Assembly (NCBI GenBank): GCA_015068935.1
Contig: SVJO01000005.1
Coordinates: forward strand, 1 to 63,380
From: Oscillospiraceae bacterium
GTDB lineage: Bacteria; Bacillota; Clostridia; UBA1381; UBA9506
Length of the DNA stretch: 63,380 bases
Direction of reading: 5' to 3'
The position numbers and the translations under genes are program-made. This document shows positions 17,741 to 19,706 of this stretch, one piece after another. The notes under the pieces are model-generated. The model searched no databases. It worked only from the letters and a program-made list of their open reading frames with translations, and was not told where the DNA came from. The stretch's first letter is position 1; each line of letters opens with the position of its first letter.

Positions 17741-18490
17741 TTACTGAATAAGTTTTGTTATTTCCTTTTTAAGACGCGAAATTATTCTCTTTTCAAGTCT
17801 TGAGATATAAGACTGTGAAATGCCTAACATATCTGCTACCTCTTTTTGTGTTTTTTCTGTGCCTGTGTTTAAGCCAAAGCGCAGTTTAATAATCTTTCTT
17901 TCGCGTACTGACAGCTTTTCAATAGCCTCGTGCAAGAGCTTTTTATCTACCTCTTCTTCAAGGTCTTTGCTTATCTCGTTTGAATCAGTTCCCAGCACAT
18001 CCGATAAAAGAAGTTCATTACCATCCCAGTCGGTATTTAAGGGTTCATCTATCGAAACCTCTGTTTTAATATTGTGAGTTTTACGCAAAAACATCAGGAT
18101 TTCGTTTTCAATACATCTTGAAGCATATGTTGCGAGCTTAATATTTTTATCGGTATTAAATGTGTTAACTGCTTTTATAAGCCCTATAGCTCCTATAGAT
18201 ATCAAGTCTTCAATATTTATTTGTGTATTTTCAAATTTGCGTGCCACATAAACAACAAGCCTGAGATTGCGTTCAATCAATGTTTTTTTCACATCATAGT
18301 TCTTATCACTGAGTTTTTCAAGTAAAGCGTGCTCTTCTTCTGGAGAAAGCGGTTCCGGGAGAATTTCGCTCCCGCCTATGTATAACACTTCGTCATATTT
18401 CATAAAAAGACATTTAAGTCTTATGTAGTTAGTTTTAAACAGATTAAACAGGTCGCAAATCAAATAGTTCAATTTATTCAATCCTTTCAT
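17741..18490 (-). CDS. sigE: Sporulation sigma factor SigE (pro-form)
   Basis: Early mother-cell sigma factor. Region 2 is highly conserved: '[16 protein letters not shown]', '[21 protein letters not shown]' and '[15 protein letters not shown]'. Region 4 has the helix-turn-helix '[20 protein letters not shown]'. The start chosen is the ATG at 18490 (249 residues), which overlaps the end of spoIIGA. It gives a hydrophobic-basic pro-sequence of about 37 residues before 'YIGGSE', roughly 8-9 longer than the B. subtilis one as I recall it. An in-frame start at 18523 would lengthen it further. No clear ribosome site is seen, so translation is probably coupled to spoIIGA. Confidence 0.95.
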
Positions 18491-19286
18491 CAAAGTCACA
18501 GGGAAGTATTGCATCAAAGCCATCCCCGAATTTTATCTCGCTTATGGCAATAAAAACATTAATTTCTTTATTGTTAACTATTGTTTTGTCAGGCATAAAG
18601 CCATATAGTTCTCCGTATCCGGAAAGGCTTTTATATCCAATAGGAACCGGGTTTTTGTTTTCAGCAAGAAAGTCACAAACACCCTTTCTGATAATCATAA
18701 CGGGAATACCGCTTTTAGGTTCAGTAAGAAAGTTGCCGCTGTCAAGAAGGGCCTTGAAAGTCGCTTTTTCTTCTCCTGAAAACACTGATACATCATAAGT
18801 AATTTCAGCGTTCCTTCTGTATTTTTTAGAAACAGATGTAAATAAACTCATAATAAAATAGCATACAACGCATACAAAAAGCAACTTATAAATAGGCACC
18901 TTAACGTAAATAATTCCACCGGAAGAAACTGCACCAAGCCAGCTGCCAAGCGCAGTGCAGTATAAAATGCAAAAGGCTATACCGCCTGCACTGAAGGATA
19001 CTGCAAGAAAAATTAATATATACTTTAAGAATGTACGAAATGTGCCCGGCATAAAAGCTATATACACCATAAATGAGGCAATTATAATATTAAGACCGCT
19101 TTTAGCAAAGGGCAACACGGGCACAAAAAAGGCAAAGACACCATACGCAGCACCGATAGTTGCAGCTGAGATAAGCCTTAATATGTGCGGCTTTCTTTTT
19201 ATTATTTTGAGACTTATGTATAACAGTGCATAATCCATGAGCAGATTAGTAAAAAACAAAACATCTGCATAAATTTTTATCTCCAT
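18474..19286 (-). CDS. spoIIGA: Sigma-E processing peptidase SpoIIGA
   Basis: Membrane aspartic protease that cleaves pro-SigE after a signal from the forespore. The N-terminal half has five hydrophobic segments (about residues 5-150). The soluble C-terminal half has the aspartic-protease motif 'LLDSGNFL' with Asp near residue 182, close to the catalytic Asp183 of B. subtilis. The second ATG (19286, 270 residues) is preferred because AAAGG lies 10 bases upstream; the ATG at 19295 is only one base from it. It overlaps sigE by 17 bases. A Spo0A-type control region lies upstream at 19336-19382. Confidence 0.93.
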
Positions 19287-19335
19287 GTAAAGCATGCCTT
19301 TCTGCAGAAATCAAAGGAGTTTTTTTCATGATAAA

Positions 19336-19382
19336 ATTATACACCAGAGGCATTAAAAAAAATGTCATTAACAGTTGTCGAA
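19336..19382 (-). promoter_or_regulatory. Putative Spo0A-controlled promoter of spoIIGA-sigE
   Basis: On the minus strand a TATAAT (19336-19341) is preceded by ATGACA (19363-19368) with a wide 21-base spacer. A perfect heptamer TGTCGAA (plus strand, 19376-19382), the core of the Spo0A box, lies 7 bases further up. B. subtilis spoIIG is known for a similar over-long spacer (22 bases) and Spo0A boxes near -35. Start of transcription would be near 19329, about 43 bases before the ATG. Confidence 0.6.
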
Positions 19383-19405
19383 CACGCAAAAGTTAACGAC
19401 ATTTT
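19355..19405 (-). terminator. Hairpin and T run after spoVG, overlapping the spoIIGA promoter
   Basis: Two 14-base arms (19359-19372 and 19392-19405) pair at 13 of 14 positions around a 19-base loop. In the minus-strand sense the hairpin is followed by eight T, which fits a terminator for spoVG. The loop contains the Spo0A-like box and the arm contains the -35 of the spoIIGA promoter. Confidence 0.6.
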
Positions 19406-19427: not shown

Positions 19428-19706
19428 TTAAAGAGCCTCTAAAGTCTCTTCCGCAAGGGCTGCATTATATTGCTTTAAGATAGCTTTTTCCATAGTGTCG
19501 CGCATCTCGGGAACGATAGGGTGGGCAATGTCTTTGTATTCTCCTTCGGGCGTTTTTCTGCTGGGCATAGCAATAAAAAGTTTCTCTCCGCCTGAGATAA
19601 CCTTAATATCGTGAATGACAAAGCAGTTATCAAATGTTACGGACACGACGGCTCTCATTTTTGAGTCTAAATTAATTTTTCTGATTCTGATATCTGTAAT
19701 ATCCAT
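19428..19706 (-). CDS. spoVG: Septation/sporulation regulator SpoVG
   Basis: A 92-residue member of the SpoVG family, small proteins that bind nucleic acid and affect septation, sporulation or surface-gene expression in Firmicutes. Conserved stretches include '[19 protein letters not shown]', '[12 protein letters not shown]', '[20 protein letters not shown]' and '[10 protein letters not shown]'. GGGAGAAG lies about 5 bases before the ATG. A possible promoter is TTTACA (19778-19783) with an 18-base spacer to TATATT (19754-19759), but the region is very AT-rich and this is weak. It is divergent from murC. Confidence 0.96.

Follow-up and report, generated by a model that had tools for sequence, protein, structure and literature searches.

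A spoIIG-type Spo0A promoter overlapping a terminator-like hairpin downstream of spoVG in an Oscillospiraceae genome

Genes and elements between spoVG and spoIIGA

The DNA analysed here (63,380 nucleotides, referred to as the window) is MAG sequence of an Oscillospiraceae bacterium, and gene neighbours were determined by simple ORF calling. With the help of NCBIfam models the order spoVG, spoIIGA, sigE was established on the minus strand, where spoVG and spoIIGA are separated by a gap of 132 nt. The genes and the elements recognised in the gap are as follows.

19428-19706, minus strand: spoVG, 92 amino acids, reading towards spoIIGA (PRK13259.1, 135 bits, above cut-off)
19355-19405, minus strand: terminator-like hairpin, with arms at 19405-19392 and 19372-19359, a 19-nt loop, and eight T residues (T8) at 19362-19355
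19395-19401, minus strand: box A, TGTCGTT, a 0A box in inverted orientation within the hairpin's 5' arm
19376-19382, minus strand: box B, 0A box TTCGACA (TGTCGAA on the plus strand), in the hairpin loop
19363-19368, minus strand: -35 element ATGACA, also half of a 0A-like box (box C), within the hairpin's 3' arm
19342-19362, minus strand: spacer of 21 nt, opening with T8
19336-19341, minus strand: -10 element TATAAT
18474-19295, minus strand: spoIIGA, 273 amino acids from the first ATG; alternative ATG at 19286
17741-18490, minus strand: sigE (pro-sigma-E), start predicted at 18490, overlapping the end of spoIIGA

The spoIIGA product is divergent and matches TIGR02854 below the curated cut-off (E 2.7e-35), with sigE next downstream; the latter scores above cut-off with both PRK08301.1 (388 bits) and TIGR02835.1 (370 bits). 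The open frame of sigE runs over the end of spoIIGA (window 18474-18523), and the pro-sequence of its product is presumably longer than that of B. subtilis pro-sigma-E. An ATG at 19329-19327, 7 nt past the -10 element and thus at or beside a possible transcription start, could open a leaderless short frame overlapping the start of spoIIGA, and probably occurs there by chance.

Read on the minus strand, the region between spoVG and spoIIGA-sigE contains TTCGACA, 7 nt, ATGACA, 21 nt and TATAAT in this order. A preliminary description of this DNA had drawn attention to the two hexamers 21 bases apart and to a perfect TGTCGAA just upstream of them, and both are indeed present, the latter as TTCGACA at 19382-19376. 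Box A, located 12 nt upstream of TTCGACA, had been missed. In the host genome (1.3 Mb) TTCGACA occurs only 86 times. The genome also encodes Spo0A, whose intact DNA-binding domain aligns without gaps to 1LQ1 and 1FC3 (E about 1e-44).

The spoIIG promoter of B. subtilis is recognised by sigma-A, activated by Spo0A~P, and characterised by an over-long spacer of 22 nt and weak 0A boxes; its relation to Spo0A was reportedly the subject of work by Baldus in 1994, which is cited in PMC3485338 and PMC12090719. The window shares with it the spoIIGA-sigE operon, the sigma-A hexamers, an over-long spacer, and 0A boxes located upstream of and overlapping the -35 element. Compared by description only, the promoter in the window differs in having a spacer of 21 rather than 22 nt, an inverted box A combined with a consensus box B at a fixed spacing of 12 nt, and an overlap with a terminator-like hairpin of spoVG. 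The B. subtilis spoIIE promoter (sigma-A, Spo0A, 21-nt spacer) belongs to the same class but drives a different gene, and we know of no terminator fused to it. In C. difficile, spoIIGA is preceded by a sigma-A promoter with the hexamers GTGACA and TATAAT, similar to ATGACA and TATAAT in the window, and its start was mapped by RNA-seq (PMC3789822). Spo0A binds this promoter in vitro with low affinity, and a consensus 0A box was not found at early sporulation genes of that species (PMC3485338), whereas the window carries a perfect one.

Conservation of the promoter and of the 0A box pair

As the genus is represented by a single genome, comparisons were made within the family and the order. The spacing of the hexamers was determined in 73 spoIIGA upstream regions of the order with the distance between -35 and -10 left free (14-26) and the boxes unscored. 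A spacing of 21 was chosen in 62 of them and 22 in one; in a letter-shuffled control, 21 was chosen 1.2 times per 73. Among the 63 promoters with a spacing of 21 or 22, exact TTCGACA lies 7 nt ahead of the -35 hexamer in 41, and TGTCG is found in the register of box A (TGTCGNN-N12-TTCGACA, i.e., 14 nt ahead of TTCGACA) likewise in 41; these counts, like the 62 of 73, come from related species and are not mutually independent. The start of the spacer is T-rich in many relatives as well. Promoter-like words arising by chance are ruled out by the order-wide conservation of the 21-nt spacing. Alignment of the gap across relatives had been suggested earlier as a check, and the comparison of upstream regions revealed conservation of both box and spacer in the order.

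Further, 84,980 species genomes (GTDB) were scanned with the pattern TTCGACA-N8-TGACA-N21-TATAAT. This yielded 81 stretches, 80 of which were examined; from the number of specified bases, fewer than ten are estimated to be chance matches. SpoIIGA is encoded directly downstream in at least 53 of the 80 (HMM), and several other matches precede open frames which, judged by eye, read as SpoIIE or SpoIIAA. Box A, which was not part of the pattern, was found in 24 of the 53 SpoIIGA matches as compared to 3 of the 27 others. In two matches from Neobacillus/Bacillus (L120, L183) the layout of box and spacer lies ahead of an open frame that by eye looks like KbaA, a protein of the KinB pathway.

Together with the presence of Spo0A, these data support the earlier proposal that the promoter logic of spoIIG is kept here, and thus the assignment of the promoter to the known Spo0A-driven, long-spacer spoIIG type, conserved across the order. 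Binding of Spo0A and the transcription start are predicted from sequence comparison. The unusual long-spacer Spo0A promoter known from Bacillus would thereby have been preserved with hardly a base changed throughout an order of gut Clostridia, most of which are uncultured.

In the host genome, the exact arrangement TGTCG-N14-TTCGACA is present only at spoIIG and, with the same spacing, upstream of a gene read as spoIIAA (spoIIA). The spoIIE promoter of this genome has TTGTCGT in the register of box A, a degenerate box B, and TTTACA-21-TATAAT. Given its occurrence at spoIIG, spoIIA and spoIIE, the box pair seems to be a building block that early Spo0A promoters of the genome have in common, and a fixed inverted pair of this kind could help to find Spo0A targets in genomes for which experiments are lacking. 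Ten relatives of another genus in the same family (g6; L003-L007, L010-L013, L015) have kept Spo0A, with an unchanged DNA-binding domain, and the 21-nt spoIIGA promoter, in which no recognisable box A or B is present; the boxes are therefore not indispensable everywhere. An altered specificity of Spo0A as the reason for this loss is unsupported, the helix around RVERAIRHAIEVAW being identical in all. Two further observations concern the arrangement of 0A boxes: at L111 (genome position C23:59432-59457) spoIIA is preceded by a perfect palindromic TGTCGAA-N12-TTCGACA followed by sigma-H-like AGGATTG ... GAAT, and at L109:675-691 (C34:7674-7690) tandem direct 0A boxes (TTCGACATTATTCGACA) are found in an intergenic region near a gene for a foldase-like lipoprotein.

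The hairpin at the end of spoVG

In the 5' to 3' direction, arm 1 of the hairpin (AAAATGTCGTTAAC) is followed by a loop of 19 nt that includes TTCGACA, and then by arm 2 (GTTAATGACATTTT), which leads into T8. The stem consists of 13 Watson-Crick pairs and one G-U pair, and reaches up to 18 pairs when extended into the T run and by one inner pairing. The hairpin with its T8, the box in the loop and the -35 element in an arm had been described before with 13 of 14 positions paired; this structure was confirmed, with 14 of 14 paired if G-U is counted. The fold has an energy of -18.2 kcal/mol (z = -5.6; none of 200 shuffled sequences as good). In the comparison with other gene-end hairpins in the window, its energy of -19.4 kcal/mol is within their range (-16 to -30 kcal/mol). 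A stable stem directly followed by T8 at the end of a gene is what intrinsic terminators look like. In contrast to the usual ones, for which a short loop and a G+C-rich stem are typical but not strict features, this hairpin has a 19-nt loop and an A/T-rich stem with 3 G-C pairs out of 14, and its arms are made of promoter and operator elements. Because of the loop size and the few G-C pairs it is referred to as terminator-like. A standard terminator scan for loops of 3-8 did not report it, and an A run further upstream is able to pair with a large part of the T run.

With box A located in arm 1 and the -35 element in arm 2, the promoter by its very layout includes a short dyad. Among 67 promoters of the order, the in-register stem comprises 18 pairs in the window as compared to 0-12 in the others, and the fold is the strongest of the 67 (-19.5; mean -7.3, sd 3.0 kcal/mol). 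A generally conserved terminator hairpin is ruled out, as most relatives have only short stems, and pairing is interrupted in those with TCTACA as the -35 element. These comparisons suggest that the hairpin grew from the conserved operator dyad. The strongest fold among the matches of the genome scan (L145) turned out to be an unrelated palindrome that is not followed by SpoIIGA.

No separate terminator-like hairpin is present between spoVG and the promoter in the window. Such a hairpin precedes the promoter in the other tested cases with an upstream gene on the same strand, except in L009, where the upstream gene abuts the promoter, and in L056, where there is only a weak hairpin. In all 20 family genomes spoVG and murC are divergent neighbours, and in several of them a classical terminator follows right after spoVG. 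None of the other genomes in this set of 20 has spoVG directly upstream of spoIIGA; in G003 and G004, spoIIGA shares the strand of spoVG and precedes it by about 2.3 kb. The adjacency of spoVG and spoIIGA as an old arrangement is thus unsupported, being found in one family genome as opposed to spoVG-murC divergence in 20 of 20. The proposed fusion of the promoter with the spoVG terminator is supported for the genome of the window only, where spoVG has no other terminator and the stem exceeds all others in the set of 67.

Proposed recruitment of the operator dyad and alternative readings

The explanation we favour, with a probability of about 0.72, is that an ordinary spoIIG-type promoter of Spo0A and sigma-A had its dyad recruited as the spoVG terminator, in this lineage only. 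Spo0A~P would bind boxes A (inverted) and B as well as the half box overlapping the -35 element, and would activate RNA polymerase that is retained on the two hexamers with their 21-nt spacing. A rearrangement would have placed spoVG, devoid of a terminator of its own, directly upstream on the same strand, whereupon the dyad of box A and -35 element was presumably lengthened and joined to the T run of the spacer. The same 51 nt would then bring about intrinsic termination of spoVG, so that its transcription is kept out of spoIIGA-sigE. Sequence comparison shows that boxes and spacing are conserved, that Spo0A is present, that the stem extension is unique and that another terminator is absent; termination of spoVG at the hairpin and any mutual interference with Spo0A are inferred. 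If so, the operator of a promoter has here apparently been put to use as a terminator. A literature search returned nothing directly relevant on an inverted 0A pair or on a terminator overlapping such a promoter, which does not prove that no such report exists.

Alternatively, the locus might be a spoIIG promoter only, with the hairpin a by-product of inverted 0A boxes and a T run, and spoVG transcription reading through into spoIIGA-sigE. This would agree with the complementarity of box A and -35 element and the T-rich spacer start in many relatives whose upstream gene is divergent, and with mean fold energies that do not differ between promoters with a same-strand (-6.9) and a divergent (-7.7) upstream gene. 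However, the stem extends far past the boxes in this genome alone. With the boxes fixed and all other bases random, at least 14 pairs arose in 0.14% of simulated sequences and 18 pairs in 0.0045% (4.5e-5). Considering also the rank of the fold among the 67 and the lack of another terminator behind spoVG, we regard a mere by-product as improbable.

Recruitment of the dyad may in addition have coupled the two functions, a possible extension of the favoured explanation rather than a full alternative to it. Transcription of spoVG would carry RNA polymerase over the -35 element, so that promoter occlusion, or a roadblock by Spo0A~P at boxes A and B, could let the two processes affect each other and form a switch. 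From the sequence, termination inside the spacer implies that the arriving polymerase must cover the -35 element. Yet physical overlap by itself is no proof of regulation, and the arrangement is repeated in no relative; such a switch is therefore considered only tentatively. A composite proposal, in which the 51-nt element became both Spo0A operator/-35 region of spoIIG and spoVG terminator by lengthening of the dyad after the rearrangement, and in which termination and Spo0A~P occupancy compete at one site and thereby tune the timing of sigma-E synthesis, is a rather speculative scenario.

Finally, the element could be a terminator of spoVG and nothing else, its promoter-like words being accidental. 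The hairpin and T8 are real, but this reading is extremely improbable, as the boxes and the 21-nt spacing are deeply conserved in genomes in which spoVG is not located upstream.
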